Shown here in pieces: positions 18,790 through 33,711 of a stretch of 56,589 nucleotides of DNA. The DNA lies in assembly GCA_947453445.1 (NCBI GenBank), contig CANGGP010000016.1, positions 1 to 56,589 of the forward strand, read 5' to 3'. The notes beneath the pieces are model-generated. The model searched no databases. It was not told where the DNA came from and saw nothing but the letters and a program-made list of their open reading frames with translations. Each line of letters opens with the position of its first letter. Positions within the stretch are counted from its first letter, which is position 1. Origin of the DNA: Sphingobacteriaceae bacterium (lineage in GTDB: Bacteria; Bacteroidota; Bacteroidia; B-17B0; Aurantibacillaceae). The position numbers and the translations under genes were made by a program.

Positions 18790-19824
18790 ATGAACGCTAA
18801 CAGATTAAATCCCAAAATGATAACCGTAGCAAGAGAGTCGAGGGGCTTAACACAGCTTGAGTTGGCTGAAAAGTTAAGTTTATCTACTTCTCAAATGTCA
18901 CGTATAGAACAGGATTTTACAGAAGTTGGGGAACAACATTTAAAAGCCCTTTCCACTGTGCTTAATTACCCTGAGACATTCTTTTATCAGGAAGGTGAAA
19001 ATCTACCTCCAGCATTGGCACTTCGGAAAAGAAATAAGGTGGCTCAGAAGGTTCTACTCCCGATTGAGGCTCAGGTAAATATTTACCGCTTCAATGTTGA
19101 GAAATTACTAAAAGCAATGGGAAAAACCGATTTTGATCTACCCACTTTGGACATAGATAAATTGGGATCACCCGCTGAGGCAGCCCGAAAGCTACGTAAG
19201 GCATGGAAGATGGAAAAAGGTGCAATTCCAAATCTCACTCAGGTATTAGAAGAAAACGGCATTTACATTATAGCTTTTGATTTTAATACCGAACGGGTAG
19301 ATGGTATGAGTATACTAGCAAATGGAAGCTTTCCTGTAGTATTTTCAAATAAAAGGAGTTTGGGTGACCGCCAACGTTTCACCTTGGCGTATGAATTAGG
19401 TCACTTGGTTATGCATTTGCAAACCAACCCGTCCTTTACAAGGGATATTAGTCACGAAGCCAACCAATTTGCTGCTGAATTTTTAATGCCGGAAAAAGAC
19501 ATTCGTTCAGATTTTAAAGATGGTGTTACAATTAACATATTGGCTGACCTGAAGCGTAAGTGGAAAGTTTCTATGCAATCGCTTCTGTATAGGGCAAATG
19601 ATCTAGGTGTAATCACCGATAATCAAAAAAGATATTTGATCAACCAGTTTAATAGTTTAAATATTCGGAGAAGAGAACCTGCCGAATTAGATATACCGAG
19701 GGAGCAACCAATGAAGTTGAGAGACACCATCACCCATTATAAAACAAAGCAACGTTTGAACGTAAAACAATTGGCTTTATTTTTTAATTCAAGTGAAGAA
19801 GAGTTCTTAAGTAAGTATTCGTAA
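18790..19824 (+). CDS. XRE-family HTH regulator fused to an ImmA/IrrE-like metallopeptidase
   Basis: The 344-residue protein has an N-terminal XRE helix-turn-helix (about 7-62, SRGLTQLELAEKLSLSTSQM) and an ImmA/IrrE domain (about 140-265). The zinc motif reads LAYELGHLVMH, so the first His of HExxH is Tyr201; Glu202 and His205 remain, and a downstream HEANQFAAEFLMP supplies the third-ligand region. ImmA-type proteases cleave phage or ICE repressors. The missing His suggests reduced or lost proteolysis, so it may act as a pure sensor or repressor. It is the first gene of the plus-strand element, under a consensus promoter, divergent from the defence operon, and could regulate either. Confidence 0.88.
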   Translation: MNANRLNPKMITVARESRGLTQLELAEKLSLSTSQMSRIEQDFTEVGEQHLKALSTVLNYPETFFYQEGENLPPALALRKRNKVAQKVLLPIEAQVNIYRFNVEKLLKAMGKTDFDLPTLDIDKLGSPAEAARKLRKAWKMEKGAIPNLTQVLEENGIYIIAFDFNTERVDGMSILANGSFPVVFSNKRSLGDRQRFTLAYELGHLVMHLQTNPSFTRDISHEANQFAAEFLMPEKDIRSDFKDGVTINILADLKRKWKVSMQSLLYRANDLGVITDNQKRYLINQFNSLNIRRREPAELDIPREQPMKLRDTITHYKTKQRLNVKQLALFFNSSEEEFLSKYS

Positions 19825-19841
19825 TAGAAAAATAAAGAGAT

Positions 19842-20045
19842 ATGAGCATAACGACAGACAAATTCGAGCTAAAAGCATACTCCAAGAGAGAATTGGCAGA
19901 GAAGTATCAAATATCGGTACGTACACTTAATACTTGGTTAAAACCATTTGATGAAAAAGTTGGAGCGAAAAGAGGTCGCTATTATACAGTGAATCAAGTA
20001 AAAGTCATATTAGAGTCACTGGGCTTGCCCGGTGTCATGCATTAA
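19842..20045 (+). CDS. Small HTH DNA-binding protein, paralogue 1
   Basis: This 67-residue protein contains a helix-turn-helix (YSKRELAEKYQISVRTLNTW, about 13-32) followed by a basic wing-like motif KRGRYYTVNQVKVILESLG. The closing motif recurs in the 69-residue protein encoded from 21034, so the two are paralogues. The form resembles excisionase or MerR-like DNA-bending proteins of mobile elements. It lies 17 bases after the XRE-ImmA gene, and a terminator follows it. It may bind the phased CCG repeats immediately downstream, but this is only inferred from position. Confidence 0.75.
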   Translation: MSITTDKFELKAYSKRELAEKYQISVRTLNTWLKPFDEKVGAKRGRYYTVNQVKVILESLGLPGVMH

Positions 20046-20079
20046 AACGCAGATTTCTTATTGAATGATTGATGAACTG

Positions 20080-20108
20080 GGTGACCAAATGGTCGCCTTT
20101 TATTTTTT
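20080..20108 (+). terminator. Rho-independent terminator after the regulator pair
   Basis: GGTGACC (20080-20086), loop AAAT and GGTCGCC (20091-20097) pair over 7 bp with one G-U, followed by TTTTATTTTTT. It closes the XRE-ImmA/small-HTH transcript 35 bases after the stop codon. Confidence 0.75.
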
Positions 20109-20129
20109 AAAATCCACCCATAATACTTC

Positions 20130-20217: not shown

Positions 20218-20389
20218 CAGCATTTTCAAAGACAATTAACTAAAATTAGAAGAAGAATCCGAAAATAGATTCGGAAGTTTCACGTTGTCTGCGTTTTGCT
20301 TCACATGTGTGCACATACCTGTACATGCCTTCTCTTCTCGTCGCTTTCCTTCAGAATTTCATACTTAGCTTCTAAATTTTAAACATAGG

Positions 20390-20479: not shown

Positions 20480-21028
20480 ATGACAGCAGTTAGAAAATTA
20501 AAATCAGCAAGACCACTCTTGAGAATAGTAAAGGGTGGCAAGTCCGATCCAATGAAAAGTGTTATAGAAAACACATGGATATTTATACATGCGGCTTTAT
20601 GGCCGAATGAAGAATTCACAAATAATGAAGAAGAACAGTTTAAACAACTGATTTCAGAACACTTTAATTTTTCTGATAATCCGAACAGTGTATTTGAAGA
20701 ACTCATAGAACGTGTTTGTTTGGTAAAACGCTTTATAAGCAGAAAACAAAGTCGCTATGTAGCCAAACCAATTGACTGGCTAAACATTCACTATTACGCC
20801 GGTCTAACAGGTACAGCAGGATGGTACGATGAGGTGTGCTTGCAGCGGGCTACTGTTCCTCAATACAATTATGGTCTTAGACTGCTCTCTAAGGCCATCA
20901 CAAAATATTTACAGGAACCAACCGTCAAAACAATTGTGAACTATCGAAAGAAACTCATTGCAGAAAAACAATTTGATCTCCTTCAGATTTTCAATAATTC
21001 AATTATTCATTTTCAAATTCAAAAATAA
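20480..21028 (+). CDS. Uncharacterised element protein, 182 aa
   Basis: I do not recognise a family. The protein has a basic N-terminus (TAVRKLKSARPLLRIVKGGK), an aromatic, helical core with IENTWIFIHAALWPNEEF and a central YVAKPIDWLNIHYYAGLTG segment containing several Trp and Tyr residues. There is no signal peptide or membrane segment. It is the first gene after the phased-repeat/promoter region and stands 5 bases before the second small HTH gene, so it may be an early replication or regulation gene of the element. No catalytic motif supports this. Confidence 0.72.
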   Translation: MTAVRKLKSARPLLRIVKGGKSDPMKSVIENTWIFIHAALWPNEEFTNNEEEQFKQLISEHFNFSDNPNSVFEELIERVCLVKRFISRKQSRYVAKPIDWLNIHYYAGLTGTAGWYDEVCLQRATVPQYNYGLRLLSKAITKYLQEPTVKTIVNYRKKLIAEKQFDLLQIFNNSIIHFQIQK

Positions 21029-21033
21029 GACTC

Positions 21034-21243
21034 ATGAAACAATCAGAAAAAACATCCATCGAAATAAAACCTTATATGCTCAATGAATTGGCAAAGTTCT
21101 ATCAGGTAAGCGATCCCACATTTAGATCATGGCTGAAAGGCATAGCGGATAAAATTGGCAAACGGCATGGCAGATACTATTCTGTGAAGCAAGTCGAAAT
21201 CATCATTGAGGAATTGGGATGTCCTAAAACGCTCTTATTCTAA
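21034..21243 (+). CDS. Small HTH DNA-binding protein, paralogue 2
   Basis: The 69-residue protein shares with the product of 19842-20045 the layout HTH (MLNELAKFYQVSDPTFRSWL) then a basic motif KRHGRYYSVKQVEIIIEELG. Overall identity by eye is moderate, strongest in the C-terminal RYY-V-QV-I-E-LG pattern. Both probably bind DNA as small winged HTH proteins of the excisionase or MerR kind. The two copies bracket the 20480 gene, and both belong to the early part of the element. Confidence 0.75.
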   Translation: MKQSEKTSIEIKPYMLNELAKFYQVSDPTFRSWLKGIADKIGKRHGRYYSVKQVEIIIEELGCPKTLLF

Positions 21244-21360
21244 AAGAATCGAAAACAAACGAAAGCACAACAAAGGATAATCTGAAACCTGTAAAGTGCG
21301 TCAAACCTATGATAGACCTTTGATGCCATGATGGATGATAACCTTAAAAACACAACAATT

Positions 21361-21555
21361 ATGTCGGAAATAAAACACAACCAAACCAATCATGACGGAA
21401 CCGGTAACATGCTTTTAACTGCCAGTATTCTGTTTGCCAACATCGACTATTCCGGGTTGACAGACTATGCCGTTAAAGCGATTGTGGGTGGTGCGATTTG
21501 GATGGCTTTTAAAGTGGGAGCAGAATACATCAGCGAAAAACTCAAAAAGAAATAA
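21361..21555 (+). CDS. Small membrane protein of the element
   Basis: From the chosen ATG at 21361 (MSEIKHNQTN) the protein has 64 residues with hydrophobic stretches LLTASILFANI and AIVGGAIWMAFKVGAEYI and a lysine-rich end SEKLKKK. An in-frame ATG at 21328 would add 11 residues, but the AT-rich leader just before 21361 favours the shorter form. It resembles small holin-like or virion-membrane proteins. Its last base overlaps the first base of the next ATG, so the two are translationally coupled. Confidence 0.6.
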   Translation: MSEIKHNQTNHDGTGNMLLTASILFANIDYSGLTDYAVKAIVGGAIWMAFKVGAEYISEKLKKK

Positions 21556-22052
21556 TGGTGAACATCAAAAAAATATTGCTTGGCTTAGGCATAGGAGGAG
21601 GCTTGGCCGCAGGAGGAACGTACCTGTGGCGGTTGAGAAAAACTTCGGTGAACTTGGAGATTGTGCCAACAGTAATGGTACATAAAATTGACTTGCAGGG
21701 TTTGATTTTGCGGGTGGATGTACAATTAAAAAATCCAAGTAGCACCAGTTTAAAACTCAAGTTCCCTTTTGTGAAACTACTCATAAAGGGAAGCAGCATC
21801 GGGAGTTCACAAGCCGTGAATAGGGACATTGCCCTGCCTTCTTATGGAGAGGCAAAATTTGAGGCAATCATGATCCGTATTCCGATGCTCAGCCTCCTCT
21901 CTAGTGCCAAAGGCCTCTTGCAAGCTATCCAACAAGGAGCAGCTTTCAAGATCGGAGTGATGACGATGACCACCATTGATTTGGGATGGAAAACAGTACC
22001 CTATGAAAACTTGGATGAAGTACAACTGATCGCCTCAAAAAATGGAAGCTAG
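21555..22052 (+). CDS. LEA type 2-like membrane-anchored protein
   Basis: This 165-residue protein begins with a basic residue pair and a glycine-rich hydrophobic segment (KKILLGLGIGGGLAAGGTYL) that probably anchors it in a membrane. A beta-rich domain follows, with HKIDLQGLILRVDVQLKNPS and KLKFPFVKLLIKGSSIGSS. The pattern V-D-V-x-L-x-N-P-S-S is typical of LEA14/WHy-type domains. It overlaps the start of the transglutaminase-like gene by 11 bases. Within a virus-like element it could be a structural protein of an internal membrane. Confidence 0.65.
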   Translation: MVNIKKILLGLGIGGGLAAGGTYLWRLRKTSVNLEIVPTVMVHKIDLQGLILRVDVQLKNPSSTSLKLKFPFVKLLIKGSSIGSSQAVNRDIALPSYGEAKFEAIMIRIPMLSLLSSAKGLLQAIQQGAAFKIGVMTMTTIDLGWKTVPYENLDEVQLIASKNGS

Positions 22053-23796
22053 TAAAAAGAGAAACATAGCAAGTGGAGAAGCATTTGATGCTCTGTTTAT
22101 CAAGCCACTTTTCCTTGATCCGGTGATCAAGCGCGGTGCAACGGTAAACGATACGGTGCGATTTATTCCGAAGGTTGTTAGAGAGACTTTGTTTCAAACA
22201 AGTAAGCTCGCCCAAACCTTAAAGGGGAAAGACACCTTTGATACTTGCAGAAACATTTGGGCTTTTGTTTACCGCTACATCGCTTATAAAAAGGATGAAG
22301 AAGGAAAGGAACAGGTCAGGAGCCCTGCGAGGACGTGGAATGACAGAAAGCAGGGAGTGGACTGCGATTGTTACACGGTGTTTATCAGCAGCATTTTAAG
22401 CAACCTTAAAATAAAACACAAGCTGAGAATAACAAAATACAAACAAGATCACTTTCAACATATCTATCCCATAGTACCAAACGGTGAAGGAAAATACATC
22501 ACGGTTGATTGTGTGGTAGACCAATTTAATTACGAAGAACCATATTCAGAAAAACAAGACACAAACATGGATTTAGAATATCTAAACGGCATACCCAGCA
22601 CAAACAATGTAGATGTGCAAGACCTAATGGGTTGGGAAGAATTACAGGGAGATTTAGGGAAATTAAAAATTCTCAAAAAGAACAATCCTTCGTCCGGAGG
22701 CGGAAGCAAACCCATCTTTAAAAAACTCGGTGCTAAAATTGCTCCACCTCCTGGTACTCAGAACACGACGACAAAAAAAGGAAAATTAAAAAATGCCATC
22801 CACAAAGGCTTGCATGTCACCAACCGAATTAACCCAGCTACTGCTTTGCTGAGAGAAGGTGTTTTGTTGAGCATGAAACTAAATCTGTTCAAAGTAGCGG
22901 AGCAATTAAAGTACTCCTACCTGACCGATGAACAGGCCAAGGCGAAAGAGGTGGACATGGCCAAGTTCGCAAAGTTGAAGGAAGTGCGTGCGAAGATGGA
23001 GAAGATCTTCTATGATGCGGGGGGTAAACCTGAAAACCTGAAGAAGGCTATTCTAACAGGAAAAGGAAATGCCAATCACGATGTGAGCGGATTAGGATAC
23101 ATCGTAGATGATATGAGTGGTTTGGATGAAAACGCCTCAGCGCAAGAACTACTTGGTACAGACATTTATTACGATGAAAATTTAAGCGGCCTTGGAGTTG
23201 TTGCGACCGCTGCCTCGGTAACCGCTGCCACAGGAGTAATTGGAGCAATAGCAGGACTTTTAAAAAGCATCGGAAGCATTTTTCCGAAAAAGAAAGTCGC
23301 AGCAAAACCTACCGAAAGCGGTAGTTCAAATGACAACTCATCCGGATCATCAGAAAGTTCTGGTGATAGTAGCTCCGGTGGCCAACAAGAAACGCCTTCA
23401 CAAAGTGCAGGTAAGTCAAGCGGATCAGGTAATGAAAATCCTTCAGGGAATTCTGAGCCTGAAAACAATTCCGGTTCATCAACTGAAAATGCGAATGGTT
23501 CAAATGAAAGCGGGGAATCAGGAACTGAAGAAACGAAGAATCTACCAGCTAAAAGTGGCGCAAAGCCCGGTGCAGCAAATGCAGCAACACAAGGCTTTTG
23601 GGATAAAAACAAAAAGTGGATCAAACCAACTGCAATCGGATTGACAGGAATAGGTCTCATATTTCTTGGAGTGAAGATGATGAAGTCTAAACCCGAAAAA
23701 TCCCCTCCAAAACACGAATTATCAGGATTTAAACCACGTAGGAAAAAGAAAGGAGGCAAAAAGCATAAGAAGAAGCAAGCAGTAGCATACGTGTAA
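22042..23796 (+). CDS. Transglutaminase-like protein with Ser/Gly-rich linker and C-terminal membrane anchor
   Basis: The 584-residue protein has a transglutaminase-like papain fold near its N-terminus: GVDCDCYTVFISS (Cys108 or Cys110 as nucleophile), DHFQHIYPIV (His140) and KYITVDCVVDQFN (Asp156), the Cys-His-Asp order of the family. After a basic region comes a hydrophobic Ala/Gly stretch at about 385-420, a low-complexity Ser/Gly/Asn/Glu linker (about 425-515) and a terminal membrane segment TAIGLTGIGLIFLGVKMM with a very basic tail. It may process or cross-link virion or envelope proteins at the membrane. It lies between the LEA-like gene and another glycine-rich membrane protein gene. 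Confidence 0.72.
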   Translation: MEASKKRNIASGEAFDALFIKPLFLDPVIKRGATVNDTVRFIPKVVRETLFQTSKLAQTLKGKDTFDTCRNIWAFVYRYIAYKKDEEGKEQVRSPARTWNDRKQGVDCDCYTVFISSILSNLKIKHKLRITKYKQDHFQHIYPIVPNGEGKYITVDCVVDQFNYEEPYSEKQDTNMDLEYLNGIPSTNNVDVQDLMGWEELQGDLGKLKILKKNNPSSGGGSKPIFKKLGAKIAPPPGTQNTTTKKGKLKNAIHKGLHVTNRINPATALLREGVLLSMKLNLFKVAEQLKYSYLTDEQAKAKEVDMAKFAKLKEVRAKMEKIFYDAGGKPENLKKAILTGKGNANHDVSGLGYIVDDMSGLDENASAQELLGTDIYYDENLSGLGVVATAASVTAATGVIGAIAGLLKSIGSIFPKKKVAAKPTESGSSNDNSSGSSESSGDSSSGGQQETPSQSAGKSSGSGNENPSGNSEPENNSGSSTENANGSNESGESGTEETKNLPAKSGAKPGAANAATQGFWDKNKKWIKPTAIGLTGIGLIFLGVKMMKSKPEKSPPKHELSGFKPRRKKKGGKKHKKKQAVAYV

Positions 23797-23821: not shown

Positions 23822-24439
23822 ATGGCAAAACATAAAAACAAATATCAAAAAGAAGCACTCAAAAAAACACTCAGCGGTGCCGGTGATGCAAGTGCAGGAG
23901 CCAAAGCCAAAGATGCAGCCACCGAATTAGGAAAGGACATTGTGGTGGGTGTGATTGGTGGCGGTGTTGCCGGGGCGGTATTAGGAAGATTATCCTTCTT
24001 AGTTGGAGCAGCCGTTACGGGAGTTGGGCATTTCGCTAAAAGCAGAATTGCTTCTGTACTCGGTCTCGGCATGATGGCATCGGGAACTTACCAAAGTATC
24101 TCCGGCATGAATGGAAAAGGCACTTCAGGTTTGGATGGTGTGAAGGAACGCTTACTCACTTTGAAAGACGACATGAAGCGTCGGGTGTTTTTGGACAAGG
24201 TTCTAAAAGCTAAGGATAAAAAAGGCTCTGATGAAAGTACCAATGGTGTAGGCGAAGTGCAATACTTCTTACACCCCGGAGCAGAATCAGTTGGCGCTCT
24301 CGACATGAGTGCTTTGGATACCATTCAAAAACAAATTCAAGAGAGTGGCGAAAAATACAGCCAAGTGAATGGCCTTGAAGGGGAACTCAGCGGCGAAGAA
24401 GAAATGGGAATGGTAGAACCCTCCGATAAACTCTACTAA
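23822..24439 (+). CDS. Glycine-rich membrane protein, possible virion protein
   Basis: The 205-residue protein has a basic N-terminus (MAKHKNKYQKEALKKTLSG) and two glycine/alanine-rich hydrophobic segments (DIVVGVIGGGVAGAVLGRLS and the one around residues 75-92 with SVLGLGMMASG). Its hydrophilic C-terminal half is acidic. No family is recognised. Small glycine-rich membrane proteins are common in the internal membranes of PM2- and PRD1-like viruses. It sits immediately before the main capsid candidate, which supports a structural role but does not prove it. Confidence 0.68.
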   Translation: MAKHKNKYQKEALKKTLSGAGDASAGAKAKDAATELGKDIVVGVIGGGVAGAVLGRLSFLVGAAVTGVGHFAKSRIASVLGLGMMASGTYQSISGMNGKGTSGLDGVKERLLTLKDDMKRRVFLDKVLKAKDKKGSDESTNGVGEVQYFLHPGAESVGALDMSALDTIQKQIQESGEKYSQVNGLEGELSGEEEMGMVEPSDKLY

Positions 24440-24484: not shown

Positions 24485-25204
24485 ATGTTAGAACTATTAG
24501 AAGGTACTGAACAGTACAACAATGCCGGAGCCTTGCTCGGACTGGAAGGTATAGAGGGCGAAGAATTATTGGGTGCATTGCGCAGAATGAATCCGGTTGC
24601 CCGTCAGCGCACCATAAACAAATTGGCGAGTCCTCCTGCGAACAGTAAAGGATCACGGGCTGAGATGGAAAAACATTTTGGTGAATTACCCGATCACATC
24701 AAATCAGCTTTGTCAAAAGGTGATTTGAGATTGGCCGACACCATCATTTACTCCATCAAACCGGTGAATTCAAAAACCGTTAAGTTGTTTGAAACACAGG
24801 ACGTGAAAGAGGTGGGTATCCGTAACCTGAGCAATGCCAAGTTACCAAAGAACCAAGCCTTATTGGTGAGTGGCATTGTTTTGTTGGCTTCTATTCCAAC
24901 AGACAACACAACCGACAAAATCATGGCATCCCGTTTCATTCAATTAGAGGACTTCCCGGCAATCGCCAACGGAGAATTCAGCTTGAAGGCCAACAAAAAA
25001 ATCATCGTGCCGGAAACAAGTGTGGCCGCTTTCAAAACGCAAAGTCACCATGCAGTGCCACTGGGCTATTACAAACTGGCAAACCCTCGCCTTATTCAGG
25101 ATGATATTCTGATTGAGTTCACCGTGGAGTTGGGCACGATGGATGGCCTTGATCCTAAAACCCAATTGTATGTGGGTTTACACGGCACCATCACCACTCC
25201 GTAA
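24485..25204 (+). CDS. Candidate major capsid protein (single jelly-roll-like), 239 aa
   Basis: The first 80 residues or so are helical (LLGALRRMNPVARQRTINKL). From about residue 85 the protein becomes a series of alternating hydrophobic strands: IIYSIKPVN, VGIRNLSNAKLPKNQALLVS, GIVLLASIP, FSLKANKKIIVPETSV, GYYKLANPRLIQDDILIEF, TQLYVGLHG. The strand count fits a single jelly roll of about 150 residues with an N-terminal arm. It has no signal peptide or membrane segment. Position after the glycine-rich membrane protein and before two other beta-rich genes is the order expected of a capsid block. No sequence signature proves it, so this is a structural guess. Confidence 0.45.
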   Translation: MLELLEGTEQYNNAGALLGLEGIEGEELLGALRRMNPVARQRTINKLASPPANSKGSRAEMEKHFGELPDHIKSALSKGDLRLADTIIYSIKPVNSKTVKLFETQDVKEVGIRNLSNAKLPKNQALLVSGIVLLASIPTDNTTDKIMASRFIQLEDFPAIANGEFSLKANKKIIVPETSVAAFKTQSHHAVPLGYYKLANPRLIQDDILIEFTVELGTMDGLDPKTQLYVGLHGTITTP

Positions 25205-25259: not shown

Positions 25260-25643
25260 ATGATAAAAACAACGAAGAAACGATTTGATATCAGAATTAC
25301 TCAGGCCAATGCTACGGTGAGTGACACTTTTGAATTGGATAAAAACATTGTTCGTATCCTCGGCATACTCCTGACTTCCGACAAAGATGATCTTTTGTAT
25401 TACCGTGGTGCCCAAAAAATCGAGATCAACAAAGAAGAGTATTTCCCGGACAACTACGAGAGTAAATTATTAATGACCGGAATCAATGTATCACCAAAGC
25501 AACGGTACTATGATTTAGGAGGGGCAAGCACCGGGAATGGAAGAGTGCAAATCACTTACAAAGATTCCGATGACGGAAGAACAGTTTTTGCTCCCTACCG
25601 TGTGAGTTTGTATTTGGATTGCGAATTGGAGGATATGAAATGA
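25260..25643 (+). CDS. Beta-rich candidate minor capsid protein, 127 aa
   Basis: The 127-residue protein is almost wholly beta-strand in pattern: RFDIRITQANATVSDTFEL, NIVRILGILLTSD, KIEINKEEYF and RVSLYLDCELEDM at the end. The motif F-x-L-x-x-x-I-x-x-I-x-G-I followed by a closing RVSLYL strand recurs in the 25640 gene as FQIKLPSDIKSIIGIEC and EVSIYVWIK, so the two may be related. A single jelly roll of this length is plausible. The ATG of the next gene overlaps its stop (ATGA), so both are made together. Confidence 0.5.
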   Translation: MIKTTKKRFDIRITQANATVSDTFELDKNIVRILGILLTSDKDDLLYYRGAQKIEINKEEYFPDNYESKLLMTGINVSPKQRYYDLGGASTGNGRVQITYKDSDDGRTVFAPYRVSLYLDCELEDMK

Positions 25644-26176
25644 ATAAGGAATCGGTAATAGTTACAAAGCTGAATATTAAACTAAAGGGAGAGCGCAAGC
25701 ACTTTCAGATCAAGCTACCCAGCGATATCAAGTCCATAATCGGAATTGAATGCAGTGTAAGAATGATCGATGCTTGGCCGGTTCCACCTGTTGATCCGCC
25801 AAGGGAAATAATAAACCCGGATGGAACTATTACCGTGATTATGCCGGAAGATGATTCTCATGTTGCTATCAAAGAAAAATACAAAGCCAATCAATTTGTA
25901 GGGGAAGTAAGAATTCAAAGTTATGATCTGCTGAATTGGTTTTATGTCTCAGATGTATATGCCAATGATGTGAATTTGAATTTATGTGATGTTTCCGATG
26001 TGTTCTTTCGAGTTAAGGAACATTCACACGGAATCCCAAAGCATGAAGAGATCATGACGATACCGGGTATCACCACTTTAGTTCAGGGCTGGTTTTTGGA
26101 TGCCATTGGCAAGCAATACAACCAAAACCTTCGCTACGAAGTGAGCATTTATGTATGGATTAAAACAGAAGATTAA
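25640..26176 (+). CDS. Beta-rich candidate capsid-associated protein, 178 aa
   Basis: I choose the ATG at 25640 (MNKESVIVTKLN), which overlaps the previous stop as ATGA. The frame extends to 25619, but that start would overlap more. The protein is beta-rich (VIVTKLNIKLKGE, KSIIGIECSVRM, FVGEVRIQSYDLLNWFYVSD, RYEVSIYVWIKTED) with a Pro-rich loop at about 48-60. It shares a strand pattern with the 25260 protein. It has no membrane segment. A penton, spike or second jelly-roll capsid protein is a reasonable guess in this neighbourhood, but I cannot name a family. Confidence 0.5.
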   Translation: MNKESVIVTKLNIKLKGERKHFQIKLPSDIKSIIGIECSVRMIDAWPVPPVDPPREIINPDGTITVIMPEDDSHVAIKEKYKANQFVGEVRIQSYDLLNWFYVSDVYANDVNLNLCDVSDVFFRVKEHSHGIPKHEEIMTIPGITTLVQGWFLDAIGKQYNQNLRYEVSIYVWIKTED

Positions 26177-26503: not shown

Positions 26504-27382
26504 ATGCAACATACCAATCCATACAACGATGTGAAACTGGCACAATTTAAAATGTGGCTAAATGACATGGTCGATAAAAACGAAGGCAAATATTTTGAAG
26601 TGTATGTGGACGATGTAAAAATTGTACCACGCACCAACCGGGTGGATGCCATTGACGACCACAAAGTGTATTTAGATGAGCGCAGCGATACCGTTAAAAT
26701 ATTTACCTACAATACTGAAAACTCCAACCGCTACGAGCAGTTCACTTTCTTTATCGAAAAGAAGAAAACAAACGAAAATTCAGCTCAAACCATAGTTCAG
26801 GCGGTACAACCACAAGGTTTGTCAGGTCTCGAATTGGAAAACAAAATCAACGAGCGGTTAACTCAATCGCTGATGCAGGAAAGAGAACGTTGGCAAACGG
26901 ATCTTCTAAAACGAGATTATGACGCTTGTAAAAAACAACTCGCAGACGCAGAAGAATACATCGGTGACTTAGAAGAACACCTCAATAAGTTCAAAGGTAA
27001 AAAACTCCATTGGGGAGATGTGAACCTTGGGGATGTGGCTTCTGTAATAGTTGAAGGCATGGTGAAACGGAATCCGCATTGGGTGGCCAAATTGCCCGGT
27101 GGCGATGCACTTGCCGGATTAATTGCCAAAGAAAGTAACGGTGGTTCGGAATCGACAGAACCGGAAACGGAAATGGTGATCCGAAAGAAGTCCGCCTCAG
27201 AGGGCGAACTCAGCGATGAGATGAAAGCACAATTAGGATTTCTGAAACAACTGGAGTCACACTTTAGCCAAGATCAGTTGGATAAAATTATGCTCATCCT
27301 ACAATGCTTTGCAGAAGAACCAAAACACATTCAAACAGTATTCGATCTTTTAGAAATCAAAACAGAAAATGAAAAAGTTTAA
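26504..27382 (+). CDS. Coiled-coil element protein with helical C-terminal domain, 292 aa
   Basis: The N-terminal 95 residues are mixed alpha/beta (KYFEVYVDDVKIV, RYEQFTFFIEKKK). Residues about 110-180 form a clear coiled coil (LENKINERLTQSLMQERERW, CKKQLADAEEYIGDLEEHL). The rest is helical with an acidic linker. No membrane or signal segment is seen. Such proteins can serve as scaffold or length-controlling proteins. The next small gene starts inside its last codons. Confidence 0.65.
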   Translation: MQHTNPYNDVKLAQFKMWLNDMVDKNEGKYFEVYVDDVKIVPRTNRVDAIDDHKVYLDERSDTVKIFTYNTENSNRYEQFTFFIEKKKTNENSAQTIVQAVQPQGLSGLELENKINERLTQSLMQERERWQTDLLKRDYDACKKQLADAEEYIGDLEEHLNKFKGKKLHWGDVNLGDVASVIVEGMVKRNPHWVAKLPGGDALAGLIAKESNGGSESTEPETEMVIRKKSASEGELSDEMKAQLGFLKQLESHFSQDQLDKIMLILQCFAEEPKHIQTVFDLLEIKTENEKV

Positions 27383-27551
27383 TTACGACATCAGCATTGA
27401 GGCCGCTTCTGAAGCAGAGGCCGATGCAAAAATGAAAGCCCTGAGTGTGCTTGCCAAAAAACTCCAAACCAAAGAATTACTGAAACTGGCTGACATCGTT
27501 CAAAACGATCCTGTAAAGACTGCGATAGCTAAAAAAGCATTAGGCGTTTAA
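27369..27551 (+). CDS. Small helical element protein, 60 aa
   Basis: This 60-residue protein overlaps the end of the previous gene by 14 bases. It begins with a short strand (MKKFNYDISIEAAS) and continues as helices rich in Ala, Lys and Leu (AKMKALSVLAKKLQTKELLK). It has no membrane segment. The overlap on one side and the 1-base gap to the next ATG on the other argue for a real, translationally coupled gene. Function unknown. Confidence 0.6.
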   Translation: MKKFNYDISIEAASEAEADAKMKALSVLAKKLQTKELLKLADIVQNDPVKTAIAKKALGV

Positions 27552-27552
27552 A

Positions 27553-28230
27553 ATGGAAAAGAAAACCACCAATACAAATTTGTCAATAAGAGAGAAAGTG
27601 ATTTACTCTTTGATCGGGATCGGCATTCTTGGTGGTGGCATTTTTTATGGCAAAAAATTTGTGCAGAAGGGCATCTCCAATCGTGAAGAGAATAAATCTT
27701 TTGAAGATGGAACGCCGGCCACTATTGCCAAACAAATAAAAATGGCTTTTGAAAATGATGGTTGGCCGGGAACAGATGTGGTAAAGCTTCGCAGCAGTTT
27801 GACTGAGATACCAAGTAAAGAGGTTTTTCTTAAAGTCCAGGACTCCTATAAAAAGTTGTACAACGGCAATTTGATAGCGGAGATGAGTGATGAATTGCAG
27901 TCCACCGAATACAACGAGATGATGCAAATTATTGCAGCCAAACCATCAAAGAAAGGTGCGAAAGTAAGCGATCCTAATATCAAATATACCGCTTGGGCAA
28001 AACGACTGAAAGCGGCCTTCGATAAGGTTTACGGGTTTTTACCGGGAACAGATGGCGATGCAATAAAAGCGGTGCTTTCAGAAATCCCTTCTCAAAAGGC
28101 TTTCATTAATACTGGGATTGTTTTCAAGAAACTATATGGCACCAACGTCATGAACGATTTAAAAAGTGAAGGAGAGTTTGGGCAGTACAGTGAATGGATG
28201 AAAGTCATCACCTCGAAACCCAAAGGATAG
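27553..28230 (+). CDS. Membrane-anchored protein with two annexin-like repeats
   Basis: The 225-residue protein has an N-terminal membrane segment (IYSLIGIGILGGGIFYGKKF, about 17-36), then two copies of a roughly 75-residue repeat at 55-128 and 145-221. Each has helix - GTD - helix - L-x-E-I-P-S - Y-K-x-L-Y - helix - EY/QYxEMM: WPGTDVVKLRSSLTEIPS... and LPGTDGDAIKAVLSEIPS.... The GTD turn, the (Y/F)KKLY helix and the terminal helix are those of annexin repeats, which occur in some bacteria. The type II calcium loop (GxGT with downstream acidic cap) is not clearly conserved. A membrane-binding role on the particle or host envelope is possible. Confidence 0.6.
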   Translation: MEKKTTNTNLSIREKVIYSLIGIGILGGGIFYGKKFVQKGISNREENKSFEDGTPATIAKQIKMAFENDGWPGTDVVKLRSSLTEIPSKEVFLKVQDSYKKLYNGNLIAEMSDELQSTEYNEMMQIIAAKPSKKGAKVSDPNIKYTAWAKRLKAAFDKVYGFLPGTDGDAIKAVLSEIPSQKAFINTGIVFKKLYGTNVMNDLKSEGEFGQYSEWMKVITSKPKG

Positions 28231-28275: not shown

Positions 28276-28746
28276 ATGAATGTTTTAAAAACAATTAAAA
28301 TGAAAACGATCAGAGATATAAAATACATTGTGGTGCATTGCACCGCTACGCCACCCAACACCACAATTGAATCCATTAAACGATTTTGGAAAGAACAACG
28401 TGGTTGGGGAGATACACCGGGTTACCACTTTTTGATTGAACGCAATGGGACGATTGTTTCACTCTTGGATCTGGATAAAAACAGCTACGGGGTGTATCAT
28501 CACAACTCAAGCTGTGTAAGTCTTGCTTACATCGGAGGAGTTGATAAAGAAGGCAAGGCACTCGACAACCGCAGTGATGCACAAAAGCACGCCATGTTCA
28601 ATTTGATTGTGTCGCTAACCGAGAAATACCCAAAAGCAGAAGTATTAGGTCACCGAGATTTTGCGGGTGTAAAAAAAGCTTGTCCATGCTTTGATGTAAA
28701 ATCATGGTTAAAGAATTATGAACCGGATTTAGGAAAGGCGGCCTAA
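28276..28746 (+). CDS. T7-lysozyme-like N-acetylmuramoyl-L-alanine amidase (endolysin)
   Basis: The 156-residue protein matches zinc amidases of the T7 lysozyme type: IVVHCTATP (His21), GYHFLIERNG (Tyr50), VLGHRDFAGVKKACPCFD (His126, Lys134, Cys136). These correspond to T7 His17, Tyr46, His122, Lys128 and Cys130. A second ATG at 28300 gives MKTIRDIKY and could be the true start. It cleaves the amide bond between MurNAc and the stem peptide. It starts the lysis block of the element and overlaps the next gene by one base (TAATG). Confidence 0.93.
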   Translation: MNVLKTIKMKTIRDIKYIVVHCTATPPNTTIESIKRFWKEQRGWGDTPGYHFLIERNGTIVSLLDLDKNSYGVYHHNSSCVSLAYIGGVDKEGKALDNRSDAQKHAMFNLIVSLTEKYPKAEVLGHRDFAGVKKACPCFDVKSWLKNYEPDLGKAA

Positions 28747-29471
28747 TGCTACTGAACAAGCTTAGAGGGATACTGCGAAGTAAGGGGTATGAACTTTATA
28801 CAAAGCCAAACGAATTAAATATTGTGGGCATTAGGTCAACAACGACAGCCTCCAACCGCTTTGATGATGAGATTCATGTTTTTTACAAAGTAGCTCCCTT
28901 AAAATGGTTCTACCATGTCTACAAGGCCACTACTGATCCGGGAACGTTTTGGTTGAAGAATCCGATGCAGCCGCAGGGCACTGCGATATTGGCGCAGGGT
29001 CAATACAAAGATGCCTATCGCATTGGAATGCATCAGAGCAAATACAAAGCCTTGGTGCAAGCGAAACCAATCTTTGTAATGCGAGATTACGACAGAACCG
29101 CCAAGCTTGATTTTAGAAACGGCAAAAAGAGTAAAGGCTTGTATGGAATTAACATCCATCGAGCCAGTCTCAGCGGAACAACTAAAACGGTGGACAAATA
29201 CTCGGCAGGCTGTCAGGTTTTTGCAAACATCAAAGACTTCAATGAATTCATGAGTTTATGTGAAAAGCACAAATCCTTATACGGAAACAGTTTCACTTAC
29301 ACACTCATCGATTTCAGAGCAGTCAAACGACAAAGTTTCAAACGCTGGACGATTGGCACAGTTTCGGTGGCTTTGGGATTAACCGCCCTGTGGGGTCTCT
29401 TAAAACGTAAAAGAAAAAACAAAAATGAAGAATCAATTCTTAGCCGCCTTAGTGCAATTACTAAAAGATAA
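28746..29471 (+). CDS. L,D-transpeptidase/murein-peptidase-like protein with C-terminal membrane anchor
   Basis: The 241-residue protein carries a motif of the YkuD kind: GINIHRA (His138) then, 14 residues on, SAGCQVFAN (Ser153-Cys156). This follows the HX14-17[S/T]xGC arrangement with Ala in place of the usual His before Gly. Around it are GLYGINIHRAS and FTYTLIDFRAV. A membrane segment (about 201-219) and a basic tail end the protein. It could be a second wall enzyme (endopeptidase-like) in the lysis block or a virion-borne muralytic protein. The predicted Cys nucleophile and His base are both present. Confidence 0.62.
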   Translation: MLLNKLRGILRSKGYELYTKPNELNIVGIRSTTTASNRFDDEIHVFYKVAPLKWFYHVYKATTDPGTFWLKNPMQPQGTAILAQGQYKDAYRIGMHQSKYKALVQAKPIFVMRDYDRTAKLDFRNGKKSKGLYGINIHRASLSGTTKTVDKYSAGCQVFANIKDFNEFMSLCEKHKSLYGNSFTYTLIDFRAVKRQSFKRWTIGTVSVALGLTALWGLLKRKRKNKNEESILSRLSAITKR

Positions 29472-29664
29472 AAACGGAAACCACAGCCTCCGGGAAGTAG
29501 CCACAGCCATTTTTGTCTTGGTGCTTTTGGTGAGTTGGGTTGCCGAGCAGTTCTTTGACAAACAAATGCCGGAGTATATGTTCTACGCCTTTGTAAGCTT
29601 GGTGGGCGCAGGCTGCTTCGGGTACTCGATTGAAAGAAAAACAACAATTAAGGATAAAAACTAA
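29425..29664 (+). CDS. Holin-like small membrane protein
   Basis: The 79-residue protein overlaps the preceding gene by 47 bases. It has a charged N-terminus, two hydrophobic segments (REVATAIFVLVLLVSWVAEQ and MFYAFVSLVGAGCFGYSI) and a highly basic C-terminus (ERKTTIKDKN). This two-pass layout between a lysin block and a spanin-like gene is typical of phage holins. Sequence alone cannot prove holin activity. Confidence 0.6.
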   Translation: MKNQFLAALVQLLKDKNGNHSLREVATAIFVLVLLVSWVAEQFFDKQMPEYMFYAFVSLVGAGCFGYSIERKTTIKDKN

Positions 29665-29668
29665 AACA

Positions 29669-30274
29669 ATGAAACAACTATTTCTCGCCTTTACCATAGG
29701 CTTCATCCTTTGCTTTTTGGGATTTAAAACCTGTCAGGATTCCCCACCTAAAAATAACTTAAAGGAAATACGACAGTCGATAAAGGTCTCCGAAAAGCAA
29801 GCAAAGCAAATCGATCAAGATTATTCAAAAGCAAAAAAGGAGTTTTTGAAAGTGGCCGATTCGCTCAAGGATGAAAATAAAAAACTCAGTACTCAACTAT
29901 CTACCAGTCGATCCTTATTAAGGAAACAGCAATTGATCGTTCAAAAACAATTGCCCTGCGATACACTGCGAAAAGAAACGCTGGTGCTGAGTAGCTTAAG
30001 TAAATGGCAGGATAGTCTCTGCGACCTTTCCATTCATTGCTTGCAAGAAGGCATAGCCATTAGGGATTCACAGCTTGTAATGTGCGACCGAAGTTATGCC
30101 TCGATGTATAATCTACAAAAAGAAAATCAACTCCGGGAAATACAATTGAGCGAAGATCTTAAGACGGCATTAAAGTCGATCAAGAAAAAACGATTTGAAA
30201 ACCGGATGCTTTCTGTAGGATGGATGATCATGGCAGGTTTAACAACAAGCCTATTAATAAAAACGCAACAGTAA
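29669..30274 (+). CDS. Spanin-like coiled-coil membrane protein
   Basis: I choose the ATG at 29669 (MKQLFLAFTIGFILCFLGFK), which gives an N-terminal membrane segment; an upstream in-frame start would overlap the holin-like gene. The 201-residue protein has a long periplasmic-type coiled coil (EIRQSIKVSEKQAKQIDQDY..., SLKDENKKLSTQLSTSRSLL) and a second hydrophobic segment near the end (SVGWMIMAGLTTSLLI). It follows the holin-like gene directly. Inner-membrane spanins connect the inner and outer membranes in lysis of Gram-negative hosts. The second membrane segment is unusual for them. Confidence 0.55.
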   Translation: MKQLFLAFTIGFILCFLGFKTCQDSPPKNNLKEIRQSIKVSEKQAKQIDQDYSKAKKEFLKVADSLKDENKKLSTQLSTSRSLLRKQQLIVQKQLPCDTLRKETLVLSSLSKWQDSLCDLSIHCLQEGIAIRDSQLVMCDRSYASMYNLQKENQLREIQLSEDLKTALKSIKKKRFENRMLSVGWMIMAGLTTSLLIKTQQ

Positions 30275-30275: not shown

Positions 30276-30449
30276 ATGAAGGAAAAGACCATCATTTCGA
30301 CCGCAACACTTGCAACCTCTTTGCTGATGTATTTCTATGCCAAAACTGTACAAAAGGACGCTGTTCCGTATGTAATGATAGGAGGCTTTATGGGAGCCAT
30401 CATTGGAGAGAGTATTATCGAATTTATAAACAAAAACAAAAAACAATAA
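30276..30449 (+). CDS. Tiny two-segment membrane protein, 57 aa
   Basis: An ATG at 30276, one base after the preceding stop, opens a 57-residue frame (MKEKTIISTATLATSLLMYF... ending NKNKKQ). It has two hydrophobic stretches (about 6-20 and 31-48, PYVMIGGFMGAIIGESI) with lysine-rich ends. The next ATG lies 2 bases after its stop. The tight packing and amphipathic layout support a real gene, probably another small virion or lysis membrane protein. Confidence 0.65.
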   Translation: MKEKTIISTATLATSLLMYFYAKTVQKDAVPYVMIGGFMGAIIGESIIEFINKNKKQ

Positions 30450-30451: not shown

Positions 30452-31003
30452 ATGGCAGTAACAATTGAAAACAATGGAGCAAACCTAAAGGTGACTGAAA
30501 ACGGGCTTTCCCGTTACATCTTTAAAGAACAAATTCGTGAGATTGAAGTCGTGCGAGGAACCATCATCCGCATTGATCTCGGACAAGGAGCATTGAGAAA
30601 TCTCTTTGTTGATCAAGCCAATGTGACCACCCCGGTATCGAGTTCAGTAACGGATCTGAGAGATCAAATCATTGCCATGCTGGAGCCTGCTGCAAATAAC
30701 AGTAATGCTAACGAAGCATTGGAACTTGCAGCCCTCAATGGTATTTCTACACTGGTAGATGGTCTAAAAACCAAAGTGGATTCTTTGGACAACAAGATTT
30801 TCTACGAACCAAAAATTGTGGATGAAAGCGATGTAAACATGGTGTACAATGGCTACGCCTTACCGGGAGCCCTTCCTGAACAAGCTGTGTGGGCAATTCA
30901 AAAGGTGAGTTTCCGTGATGGATTATACACCTATGAGTGGGCTGGTGGCAACAAGAACTTTGATAAAAAATGGTCTGACAGAAACTTATTGAGTTTCAGC
31001 TAA
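30452..31003 (+). CDS. Uncharacterised element protein, possible fibre or attachment protein
   Basis: The 183-residue protein begins with beta strands (AVTIENNGANLKVTENGLSR, REIEVVRGTIIRIDLGQG), passes through a helical part (about 80-115, EALELAALNGISTLVDGLKT) and ends with YTYEWAGGNKNFDKKWSDRN. It has no signal or membrane segment. No family recognised. The beta start, helical stalk-like part and compact C-terminus would fit a short fibre or tail-spike-like adhesin, but this rests on shape alone. The Dam methylase gene begins 3 bases after its stop. Confidence 0.55.
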   Translation: MAVTIENNGANLKVTENGLSRYIFKEQIREIEVVRGTIIRIDLGQGALRNLFVDQANVTTPVSSSVTDLRDQIIAMLEPAANNSNANEALELAALNGISTLVDGLKTKVDSLDNKIFYEPKIVDESDVNMVYNGYALPGALPEQAVWAIQKVSFRDGLYTYEWAGGNKNFDKKWSDRNLLSFS

Positions 31004-31006: not shown

Positions 31007-31879
31007 ATGAAGACACCAATCACATATTACGGTGGGAAACAAACCCTTCTTAAATACCTGTTACCATTGATTCCCGCACACCGTTTATATTGTGAACCCT
31101 TCTTTGGGGGTGGCGCTGTTTTCTTTGCAAAACCAAAATCGGAAGTAGAAGTGATTAATGATATCAATGGAGAGATTGTAAATTTCTTCAAAGTCCTGAA
31201 ATCAAACTTCCCGGAATTGCAAAAGGAAATCAGAGCCACCCTTCATAGTAGGGAACTCTATAAAAAAGCAATGGTGGTGTATGCACACCCGGATTTGTTT
31301 TCGGATGTAAAAAGAGCTTGGGCTCTTTGGGTACTCACCAACCAAGGCTTTGCAGGGATGATTGGCTCTTGGGGATTTGGAAAAGATGATTCAAAAGAAG
31401 CATCCTTAGCAGTTAAGAGAGAAAACTTTACAAAAGACTACGAAGACCGGCTCGTAAAAGTGCAGGTCGAAAATAATAACGCAATTAAAGTAATACAACG
31501 CTGCGATGACAAAGAAACATTTATCTATGCCGATCCGCCGTACATTGGTTCGGATCAGGGGCATTACAAGGGCTATTCAGAAAACGATTACAGAGAACTA
31601 CTCGATGCACTGGCCAAGGTGAAGGGAAACTTTTTATTGAGTTCTTACCCTTCAAAAGTATTGCAGACATACATCAAGAAGTACAAATGGCGAGTTCAGA
31701 AAGTCACTAAGAGTGTGGCTGTAACAAAGCACACCGACAAAGTGAAGACGGAAATGATTGTGATGAATTATGATCCTGCAAAAATAAAATCCTTTCAACA
31801 TAGCCTTAACACCAAAGACAAGAGAGAACTCCAGACTCTGACTAAACAACTTCGCCAATTAAAATTCAAAGCAAAATGA
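31007..31879 (+). CDS. Dam-type (D12 class) DNA adenine N6-methyltransferase
   Basis: The 290-residue protein has the class D12 order of motifs: TPITYYGGKQTLLKYLLPLI (motif X-like start), CEPFFGGGAVFFAKP (motif I, SAM binding), EVINDINGEIVNFF and YADPPYIGSD (motif IV, DPPY). It methylates adenine N6, in GATC or another short site. In viruses such enzymes protect genomes from host restriction, which is pertinent next to the McrBC/methylase operon. The ATPase gene overlaps its stop by 4 bases (ATGA). Confidence 0.93.
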   Translation: MKTPITYYGGKQTLLKYLLPLIPAHRLYCEPFFGGGAVFFAKPKSEVEVINDINGEIVNFFKVLKSNFPELQKEIRATLHSRELYKKAMVVYAHPDLFSDVKRAWALWVLTNQGFAGMIGSWGFGKDDSKEASLAVKRENFTKDYEDRLVKVQVENNNAIKVIQRCDDKETFIYADPPYIGSDQGHYKGYSENDYRELLDALAKVKGNFLLSSYPSKVLQTYIKKYKWRVQKVTKSVAVTKHTDKVKTEMIVMNYDPAKIKSFQHSLNTKDKRELQTLTKQLRQLKFKAK

Positions 31880-33711
31880 GAATCACAACTAAGAATTATT
31901 TTAAAGCCATTAATGAAGTAGGCTTTGAAAACCTCCCAGACGTTTTACAACGATCTCACACCATCATTGATGACAGGACACAGCACGGCAAGGACTGGGG
32001 GATTTATGAAAAGGATGCAGACGTAAAAAGAGCGTTTGATTTGGGCTTTGAAAAGTTGGAGGAGTTTATTGATCGCAAGGAAGATCTGTCGGGCTTGGAT
32101 AGCAATCCAATAATTGAAAGAGCAAAACAAGATGCGGCAGGGTATAAAAATCTACCACTCGAAAAATTAAAAATGATTTACCGTTTGGAATTAGATGCTG
32201 AGTTGGAAGATGGTCTAACCGCAGAGATTGCGATTCGCAAACCGGCATTAGAGAAGGCCATAGCAGAGAAAGAAGGCAGAGAGACACCGGATAAGCATGT
32301 GTCGCCTTTGGAACAGAAGTTGATCAAACGATTTTTATTATTGACCGGCAAAACACATCAGAAAAAAGAAATTGAGGGATTTCTAAAAGATGTGCTGGCT
32401 GCCATTAAGAACGATGAGTTTGAGAATTCTGTTTTGTCGAAGGAAATACTGTTTGTGAAAAGCAAGTTGATTCCATTAGTTAAATCGATGGGAAAAAGCG
32501 TTAAGATTGAACTGTCAACGGACACTAAAAAGAAACTCCAGTTAGCCTTGAACAAGGCGAATGCGAAGCCCAAAGTAAAAAAGACACTTGATGGAATTGA
32601 ACCGGAAGTCGCCCAAGAAAACAAACCCAGTCAGAATTTAATGAACAGCATTGATTTTGCGAAGCTGCATTTTAATTCTATCGGCTTCACCGGAAAGTGG
32701 TTTGATTTGATCGGAGACCCAAGTCCAGGATTCACAGCGATGGTCTTTGGAAGACCGAAGATGGGGAAGTCCTATCTCTGTGTTGATCTTGCAGGATACT
32801 TAGCTCGTAATCATGGAACCGTTCTATATGTTGCAAATGAAGAGAAGTTAGATGCTACCCTCCAAATGAAACTCAACGACAAAGAGGTGAAACATGAGAA
32901 TTTATTTGTAAGCGATTATTTGCCGGAAGACCTGAGTAAGTATCAGTTTATCATTTTAGATAGCGTGAACAAATTGGGTTTAAGTCCTAAAGACTTGGAA
33001 AACATGAAAAAGAAGAACCCCGGCAAATCCTTCATCTTTGTTTTTCAAACAACCAAAGATGGAAAATTCAAAGGAGCGAATGCCTATCAGCACGATGTGG
33101 ATGTGGTGATCGAAGTGCCTGAGAGAGGAAGAGCCACCCAATTTGGAAGGTTCAATCAGGGAGGAGAGATTGCCATTTTCGAGGATGTTCCGGTCGGAGA
33201 GACCGAAGAGTTAAATGGGATCAGAAAGCCTAAAAAGAACTTGGAAGTTCCAAAAAATGTATCGAACGTAGCTACCATGAAAAAGAAAACCTCTGAAAAC
33301 AAGGACTGGACTGAGTCGCAGCACTTGAACGCTTCGGACAGGCGTGATTTAAAATTAGTCAAGGAATATTACGATGCAGGTAAATTCATGGAAGCAATGA
33401 GTTATGCTTCTCGATTAGAGACCATTGTCCGAGAAGAAATTCCACCGAAAATTTGGAAAGAGATCGGTGGTGAACTCACTCCGGCAGGAAAAGAACGCCT
33501 CATGTCGAAGGACTATGAAAACCGTGCGGATGAAATTAACCCAAGGTTTATTTTTAGCACCGTTGCAACGGCTTTACTCGTTGAGGCCTTACGGGGCGAC
33601 TTTGATTTAAAAGCCCTTGTGAGGCGAGAATTAGCCAACAGAGGGCTAAATGCAGCCGGGGATTGGGTTGGCTTTGACAAAGCGGCTCAGATTCATAAAA
33701 TAAAGAAGTAA
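31876..33711 (+). CDS. RadA/RecA-like ATPase with extra N- and C-terminal domains, 611 aa
   Basis: The N-terminal 240 residues are helical and charged and start RITTKNYFKAINEVGFENLP. A RecA-like core occupies about 255-440: Walker A FGRPKMGKS (291-299), LYVANEEK, Walker B FIILDSVNK (358-366), QTTKDGKFKGANAYQHDVDV (RadA-like KxGxxxGxxxxxH pattern) and GRFNQGGEIAIF. This matches RadA/DnaB-like ATPases more than HerA/FtsK or terminase. The C-terminal domain (about 475-611) is helical. It probably works in DNA replication or recombination of the element; use as a packaging motor is less likely. It is the last gene before the hairpin at 33732. Confidence 0.75.
   Translation: MRITTKNYFKAINEVGFENLPDVLQRSHTIIDDRTQHGKDWGIYEKDADVKRAFDLGFEKLEEFIDRKEDLSGLDSNPIIERAKQDAAGYKNLPLEKLKMIYRLELDAELEDGLTAEIAIRKPALEKAIAEKEGRETPDKHVSPLEQKLIKRFLLLTGKTHQKKEIEGFLKDVLAAIKNDEFENSVLSKEILFVKSKLIPLVKSMGKSVKIELSTDTKKKLQLALNKANAKPKVKKTLDGIEPEVAQENKPSQNLMNSIDFAKLHFNSIGFTGKWFDLIGDPSPGFTAMVFGRPKMGKSYLCVDLAGYLARNHGTVLYVANEEKLDATLQMKLNDKEVKHENLFVSDYLPEDLSKYQFIILDSVNKLGLSPKDLENMKKKNPGKSFIFVFQTTKDGKFKGANAYQHDVDVVIEVPERGRATQFGRFNQGGEIAIFEDVPVGETEELNGIRKPKKNLEVPKNVSNVATMKKKTSENKDWTESQHLNASDRRDLKLVKEYYDAGKFMEAMSYASRLETIVREEIPPKIWKEIGGELTPAGKERLMSKDYENRADEINPRFIFSTVATALLVEALRGDFDLKALVRRELANRGLNAAGDWVGFDKAAQIHKIKK

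Follow-up and report, generated by a model that had tools for sequence, protein, structure and literature searches.

A probable integrated tailless virus with defence cargo in a Sphingobacteriaceae genome, distantly related to phage SSIP-1

SSIP-1, which infects Salisaeta of the phylum Rhodothermota, is a tailless phage with a membrane and stands as an unclassified double-stranded DNA (dsDNA) phage. Three reviews describe a circular dsDNA genome of 44 kb, a T=49 capsid and two capsid protein types, group the phage with the PRD1-adenovirus-type viruses and give a single jelly-roll with a question mark (PMC6356626, PMC4958249, PMC6260650). FLiP and PhiCjT23 of Flavobacterium are tailless, membrane-containing viruses of Bacteroidota hosts, and PhiCjT23-like prophages are known (PMC9719478). 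They have short circular single-stranded DNA genomes (7,642 nt for PhiCjT23), a double jelly-roll capsid, a Rep gene and XerC/XerD-dif integration. Here, we describe an element in a stretch of 56,589 nt from a Sphingobacteriaceae bacterium (contig CANGGP010000016.1; hereafter the window), wherein an initial annotation had proposed a tailless virus-like element at positions 18,790–33,711. Apparently the particle-making portion, this segment accounts for half of a larger element, which we consider probably to be an integrated temperate tailless icosahedral virus, likely with an internal membrane, that is distant kin of SSIP-1 and carries defence islands. With less confidence, we also lean towards a wider claim, namely that such elements form an undescribed and abundant group of tailless temperate viruses, at family level or higher, whose capsids are built of single jelly-rolls, whose packaging ATPase is of the RecA/KaiC type, and which integrate at tRNA genes by a large serine recombinase and move entire anti-phage defence islands between Bacteroidota genera.

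The segment contains 23 genes, some overlapping by a few bases, all on the plus strand as the initial annotation had stated, even though its count of about 24 had to be corrected. The G+C content (2-kb windows) was 0.38–0.44 across 19,001–34,000 vs 0.32–0.38 outside. Each of the 23 products was compared with at least one of Pfam, PHROGs and NCBIfam, and none gave a convincing match to a tail, portal, terminase, HK97 or integrase protein, which sets the element apart from the Caudoviricetes with their terminase, portal and HK97 capsid. The tailless gene set proposed earlier was therefore borne out, as was the absence of a HerA/FtsK-type packaging ATPase: no product matched this type, and a RecA/RadA-like ATPase was the only one recognised.

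Three beta-rich products had been put forward as capsid candidates, and the two that were folded (genes 24485..25204 and 25260..25643) were both predicted to be jelly-rolls; the non-capsid folds that would have contradicted the proposal did not appear for this pair. For the 24485 product (239 amino acids, aa), AlphaFold2 (40 sequences) predicted a helical N-terminus followed by one eight-strand barrel from residue 82 (predicted local distance difference test, pLDDT, 68.2; predicted template modelling score, pTM, 0.59). A double jelly-roll capsid was rejected on account of this single predicted barrel, and the suggested likeness to PM2 and PRD1, which have two, found no support. In Foldseek, the top eight Protein Data Bank (PDB) rows were all viral capsid proteins (best E 3.6e-4, template modelling (TM) scores 0.15–0.38). 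The best row in a library of viral structures, where tail and movement proteins were found among the rows too, was I1ZBH9, a 211-aa protein with no organism named (E 4e-6, TM 0.39–0.44); SSIP-1 gp35 and gp46 are 211 aa long. When realigned (VIA rows), the predicted 24485 structure scored Z 8.4 with SPV1 (root-mean-square deviation 4.0, 150 aligned) and with PBCV-1, 8.1 with the Orf virus scaffold protein and with EhV-201, 8.0 with SGIV, 7.5 with Faustovirus, 7.3 with PRD1, 6.7 with HHIV-2 and 6.3 with both SH1 and P23-77 VP17. The 25260 product was modelled with eight strands at pLDDT 91.4 and realigned with EhV (Z 8.3), SPV1 (8.2) and HHIV-2 (8.1). On these models, support for the jelly-roll prediction is good in the case of 25260 and moderate in that of 24485. 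Given its fold, conservation and context, the 24485 product is likely the major capsid protein, while the 25260 product would be a minor or second capsid protein and the third beta-rich product (25634..26176, start codon uncertain) is possibly a vertex or receptor protein. PDB sequence searches with the capsid profile, and with the transglutaminase-like protein discussed below, returned nothing useful.

The two predicted folds show modest similarity to the single vertical jelly-roll capsid proteins of P23-77, HHIV-2 and SH1. Viruses of the P23-77/sphaerolipovirus type use an FtsK/HerA-like packaging ATPase, whereas such an ATPase was unmatched among the window's 23 products. From FLiP and PhiCjT23, the elements differ by their predicted single barrel and by a serine recombinase near tRNA genes.

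To what extent this gene set is shared became apparent from several searches, all of whose counts include the window's own genome unless named genomes were scanned. Homologues of the 24485 protein occurred in 39 of 150 genomes, with at most 5 copies per genome and identities down to 27%. With the capsid profile, matches came from 32 of 87 genomes in the order to which the window belongs, from 23 of 40 in its genus (a count of the same rows), and from 5 of 395 in a sample across the phylum. A scan of named genomes gave 113 confirmed loci, of which 80 were retained; isolates with loci belonged to Chitinophaga, Puia, Flavisolibacter, Niastella, Flaviaesturariibacter and Sediminibacterium, with Chitinophaga eiseniae, Puia dinghuensis and Flavisolibacter nicotianae among the hosts. 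Pattern scans of IMG/VR yielded two contigs only. We then considered gene order in 81 loci (the 80 and one from IMG/VR), setting aside 19 with too little flank and leaving out L121, in which no capsid open reading frame was called though tblastn matched. The core genes found were on the same strand and in the same order in 61 out of 61 testable loci, and at least 9 of the 11 core families were present in 59 of them; since strand and order are kept throughout, the gene arrangement is not due to chance. Across loci, the 24485 family was the most conserved (65–95% identity in the 80 loci) and the 25634 family the most variable (20–77%). The ratio of nonsynonymous to synonymous substitution rates (dN/dS) in three close pairs was 0.07 (23 genes), 0.06 (22 genes) and 0.15 (19 genes). 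Of 21 genes compared with G039, 15 had ratios of 0.02–0.22, although dS was mostly saturated, and the other six yielded none.

More distant capsid subgroups were seen in loci L056–L062, L064 and L065 (21–34% identity to the window's protein for those in A1), which, L058 excepted, carry a transglutaminase gene at the same locus. Likewise, weak capsid matches in G232 and G478 lie about 3 kb from a transglutaminase gene. With these distant subgroups and their transglutaminase neighbour, the group extends beyond the 80 loci; for two of the distant capsid subgroups, nothing was found in viral contigs. Two loci on contigs of metagenome-assembled genomes, L123 and L128, were 100% identical across 20.7 kb comprising element and flanks, and represent either one organism or a very recent transfer.

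The related gene sets found elsewhere were mobile, and the restriction to fixed chromosomal contexts that would have spoken against the initial proposal was not what we saw. The module of G023 (genus g1) and that of one G043 copy (g5) shared 94.2% nucleotide identity over 14.2 kb, while groEL was at 76%. G007 (g1) and another G043 copy were 96.6% identical over 12.9 kb, and G065 (g8) and G037 (g1) 91.4% over 12.6 kb. As judged from these sequence comparisons, the module moves between genera. A candidate empty site downstream of groEL in G014 fitted the G023 insertion on its left but not on its right; no clean empty site was obtained because the genes to the right of the G023 element are common to the G014 element. 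Right of the element in both L193 (G023) and L195 (G014) lies an SOS-type cassette of LexA-, DinB-, DnaE2- and YedK-like proteins (names by eye). Its identity between the two genomes is 92% vs 83% for groEL, and given this excess, the cassette seems to travel with the element.

The phrase 'without integrase' in the initial annotation did not hold as a trait of the kind. Using the large serine recombinase of the G065 element as a query in 27 genomes, we obtained 107 matches in about 111 Mb, from 25 of the genomes. Within a limit of 50 kb upstream of the 51 capsid-gene copies in these genomes, a recombinase on the opposite strand accompanied 25 copies (at 11.8–42.2 kb; in G050 as fragments only), vs approximately 1.2 expected at the overall density. 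Five copies, three of them from G129 and a single one from each of G093 and G062, had a same-strand recombinase downstream; the one in G129:C16 had no tRNA gene adjacent. The IMG/VR contig L031 begins within its recombinase. A tRNA gene was located at 11 of the 13 upstream ends examined, at most about 340 bp from where the aligned recombinase ends: tRNA-Leu in G023, G014, G065, G037, G017 and G018, tRNA-Phe in G017 and G043, tRNA-Ser in G014 and G144, and tRNA-Arg in G043. The ends lacking one were a G033 end and that of the second G037 copy. In six ends, tRNA and aligned recombinase overlapped by 24–33 bp, so that the attachment site is probably at the 3' end of the tRNA gene, and a displaced tRNA-Ser 3' end (27 nt, 96%) was found right of one G014 element. 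XerCD/dif integration was set aside once the recombinase and tRNA genes had been found, and no dif scan was made. From the recombinase end to the ATPase end, the elements measured 28.7–41.9 kb in 16 cases and 23.8 kb in G050; one IMG/VR contig gave an element length of at least about 24 kb. On contig C68 of G037 (about 194–273 kb), two elements lie nearly head to tail: the second recombinase begins about 4 kb past the right end of the first element, and a 33-nt terminator-like stretch is repeated there. This layout and the recurring stretch suggest tandem integration. The second G037 copy has lost later genes near another recombinase match.

Among described viruses, SSIP-1, to which the initial annotation had made no comparison, came closest. 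The transglutaminase family of the elements (22042..23796 in the window; DUF553, 3e-4) matched SSIP-1 gp34 (blastp best 1.9e-15, hmmsearch 2.7e-18, hhalign 97.8%), and for the L062 member, the sole matches among 50,697 phage records were two SSIP-1 entries (8e-10). The 31876 ATPase matched gp40 (tblastn 2e-6; a relative 5.7e-13), which itself matches AAA_25 (5e-11). A methyltransferase-helicase family (Eco57I and AAA_34), present in 49 of 92 loci, had 20 members matching gp43 (best 2.7e-6), and a rarer family of 3 loci matched gp43 at 8e-48. All three, gp34, gp40 and gp43, are marked structural in the SSIP-1 record. The elements thus share with SSIP-1 a transglutaminase-like virion protein and an ATPase of the AAA_25/KaiC-matching rather than the HerA/FtsK type, and some loci may hold relatives of its large methyltransferase protein, even though the window is without one. 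The genome sizes are 43.8 kb for SSIP-1 and about 24–42 kb for the elements. The two differ in gene order, and their capsid proteins could not be linked by sequence. For SSIP-1, the record lists a DNA invertase as well as an integrase, in place of the tRNA-linked large recombinase of the elements. Moreover, no defence genes are named in the SSIP-1 annotation, and its host belongs to another phylum. SSIP-1 is therefore the nearest known virus, yet a distant one, and we assign the element to no named family.

The remaining genes of the segment are given here with the frequency of their families among the 92 loci. The first, 18790..19824, encodes an XRE regulator with an ImmA/IrrE-type peptidase (Peptidase_M78 1.4e-20, HTH_3 9e-9) that likely serves lysogeny control. 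It is followed by a small helix-turn-helix (HTH) protein with homologues that resembles MerR/DUF4248 below the cut-off of the family scans (19842..20045), a conserved 182-aa protein (20480..21028, 56/92), a second small HTH protein sharing the cluster of the first (21034..21243), a hydrophobic 75-aa protein of presumed membrane role (21328..21555, 56/92, no Pfam match) and a 165-aa, probably membrane-anchored protein (21555..22052, 78/92). Between the transglutaminase and capsid genes lies that of a glycine-rich, probably membrane-associated 205-aa protein (23822..24439, 79/92). Downstream of the beta-rich proteins are a conserved 107-aa protein (26179..26502, 79/92), a 292-aa protein with a coiled stretch seen by eye (26504..27382, 82/92), a conserved 60-aa protein (27369..27551, 62/92, no Pfam match) and a 225-aa protein whose N-terminus is hydrophobic by eye (27553..28230, 81/92). 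The lysis block that had been called apparently complete is supported by matches for an N-acetylmuramoyl-L-alanine amidase (28276..28746; Pfam 1.6e-15, PHROG lysis 5e-48) and a second lysin-like protein (28746..29471; phrog_3000 5e-36, phrog_33083 endolysin 1e-16), while a holin-like small membrane protein (29425..29664, 46/92) and a spanin-like coiled protein (29663..30274, 62/92) are suggested by size and position, and by position, respectively. In some elements (L072:15300-15896 and relatives; 15/92), the amidase and holin-like genes flank a glucosaminidase (Pfam 5e-19), in a position that, as seen for L041, is the site of the window's second lysin-like gene; relatives thus seem to have swapped their lysis block. 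A putative 57-aa membrane protein (30276..30449, 48/92) and a conserved 183-aa protein (30452..31003, 54/92) precede the two enzymes that the initial annotation had named correctly, a Dam/D12 adenine methylase (31007..31879, 2.9e-27) and the RadA-like ATPase (31876..33711). The latter, final gene of the conserved set matched phrog_6891 'ATPase' at 4e-20, RadA of NCBIfam at 1e-5, far under the model cut-off, and AAA_25 at 0.0018, below cut-off, and is a candidate packaging ATPase of RecA/KaiC-like type. A terminator-like hairpin with a conserved tail (33712..33779, plus strand) marks the right end, where the similarity of relatives stops at 33,777–33,779. No Rfam row reached the gathering score over 18,000–34,500.

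Left of these genes, on the minus strand, lies an arm of defence-type cargo (499..18126; PADLOC, Pfam) comprising a WYL protein (1308), DUF5131 (3566), PDC-M30A (TcmP-like, 4338), an exo/endonuclease (6250), McrC (7546), a McrB-like AAA protein (8793), a type IIG restriction enzyme (11513) and a PLD/SNF2 helicase (14839). The four genes at 7546–18126 are collinear with G065, where they stand between recombinase and virion genes (identities: McrC 80%, McrB-like 73% and 53% in its second part, type IIG 57%, PLD/SNF2 helicase 84%); those left of 7546 are presumably part of the element as well. The defence cargo between recombinase and virion genes is variable. A receiver-like protein (18245..18586, minus strand; cREC_REC, Pfam 1.5e-24) could be either cargo or host. 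Beyond the right end at about 33,779, a two-component system and RND-type (resistance-nodulation-division) efflux genes (33849–42690, names by eye) are probably of the host. A stretch of 19 nt that recurs exactly at 33807 and 35781 may serve as a regulator site, and repeats upstream of a related two-component system in L175 (G033:C10) resemble integron attC sites in their pattern.

If the element is a temperate virus, the large serine recombinase would use the 3' end of a tRNA gene as the insertion point for a circular genome, and the XRE/ImmA protein would hold the provirus silent. After induction, the 24485 and 25260 products and their neighbours would build a vertical single-barrel capsid enclosing a membrane in which the small hydrophobic proteins sit. 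The DNA would be loaded by the 31876 ATPase, and the cell opened by the amidase and second lysin together with the proteins that resemble a holin and a spanin. Through its left arm, the provirus may act as a carrier of anti-phage defence genes that serve the host.

Several observations weigh against this reading, and we consider them together with the explanations that compete with it. No circular or packaged form was seen: no GenBank phage and no PLSDB plasmid matches 24485, and the two IMG/VR contigs have no terminal overlap. Among the 51 copies, 21 had no recombinase on either side; their upstream contig was shorter than 27 kb in 10 (window included), longer than 38 kb in 6 and of unknown length in 5. 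The window contig shows neither recombinase nor tRNA; as it begins only 24 kb ahead of the capsid gene, any integrase of this copy is out of sight. A right-end tRNA fragment was convincing in one of 11 cases and weak (13 nt) in another, with nothing convincing in nine; in the window's right flank, the best fragment against six tRNAs (11 nt, E 0.06) was not accepted. Direct repeats at the ends of 12 elements did not exceed shuffled controls. The absent extrachromosomal form, the six copies with ample upstream contig and a cargo that could serve the host would suit a domesticated particle or gene transfer agent, which makes particles from a module that is no longer self-mobile. We regard this as unlikely in view of the recent cross-genus transfer of the module, its patchy presence, the several diverged copies per genome and the recombinase beside a tRNA gene in many copies.

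In the window's module, no replication gene (polymerase, Rep or primase) was recognised with Pfam, PHROGs or NCBIfam. This, along with the large cargo and an ATPase of RecA/KaiC type only, agrees with a satellite that makes its own capsid and relies on a helper to be replicated or packaged, an explanation we consider just as improbable as the previous one. As a rule, satellites that depend on a helper do not encode a complete virion, whereas the virion, lysis and control genes appear complete here.

The structural and SSIP-1 evidence has weaknesses too. TM-scores for 24485 in Foldseek were low (at most 0.39 on the query side), Foldseek gave no match under 0.001 for 25260, Z values near 8 are rated weak by the structure tool itself, and the non-viral enzyme PHM reached Z 7.2 for 24485 and heads the list for 25260 (Z 8.6). 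The window's own transglutaminase protein has no phage match, SSIP-1 included, so the link runs via the family, and 15 of 16 profiles, the capsid included, gave at most 6% with SSIP-1 proteins, the exception in hhalign being the transglutaminase; a capsid link to SSIP-1 by sequence was accordingly rejected, and a blastp row to gp45 (E=0.006) was not relied on. The ATPase match is unspecific (29 other phage entries at E up to 1), and both ATPase and methyltransferase matches are common to many tailed phages. Jelly-rolls are known in non-viral proteins, and the left arm is full of defence cargo, as would be expected if this were a defence island or integrative element of non-viral nature, with beta-rich proteins that build a compartment or a structure on the cell surface. 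This is very unlikely, given the phage lysis matches of the amidase and second lysin, the capsid rows heading the 24485 list, and a transglutaminase family whose sole phage match is an SSIP-1 virion protein. Finally, weak rows for a small terminase (E 0.014, on a small HTH protein), for excisionases/transposases (E 0.04–0.13, on two small HTH proteins) and for tape-measure proteins (E 0.2–0.5, on a coiled protein) are in our judgement noise. A decayed tailed or unrecognised HK97-type phage, to which an amidase, Dam methylase and ATPase related to phages at large might point, is scarcely credible: none of the 23 products convincingly matched a terminase, portal, HK97 or tail protein, the gene set is intact in dozens of loci, and jelly-rolls are predicted.

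We therefore favour an integrated tailless virus. Set against GenBank, the SSIP-1 genome 'hardly shares any similarity', as a 2019 review puts it (PMC6356626). Our literature search of open-licence PubMed Central, with subscription journals mostly and bioRxiv entirely outside it, found no description of SSIP-1-like proviruses in Bacteroidota, nor a described Bacteroidota lineage with this gene set, in agreement with the initial annotation. Given that 32 of 87 genomes of the order match the capsid profile, compared with two IMG/VR contigs and no GenBank phage, virus catalogues seem to miss the group. These loci offer SSIP-1 distant relatives in culturable Bacteroidota, so that its lineage, the way in which it integrates and its unusual ATPase become open to testing; if the reading is true, defence islands on a tailless virus would add a further type of carrier to those known.

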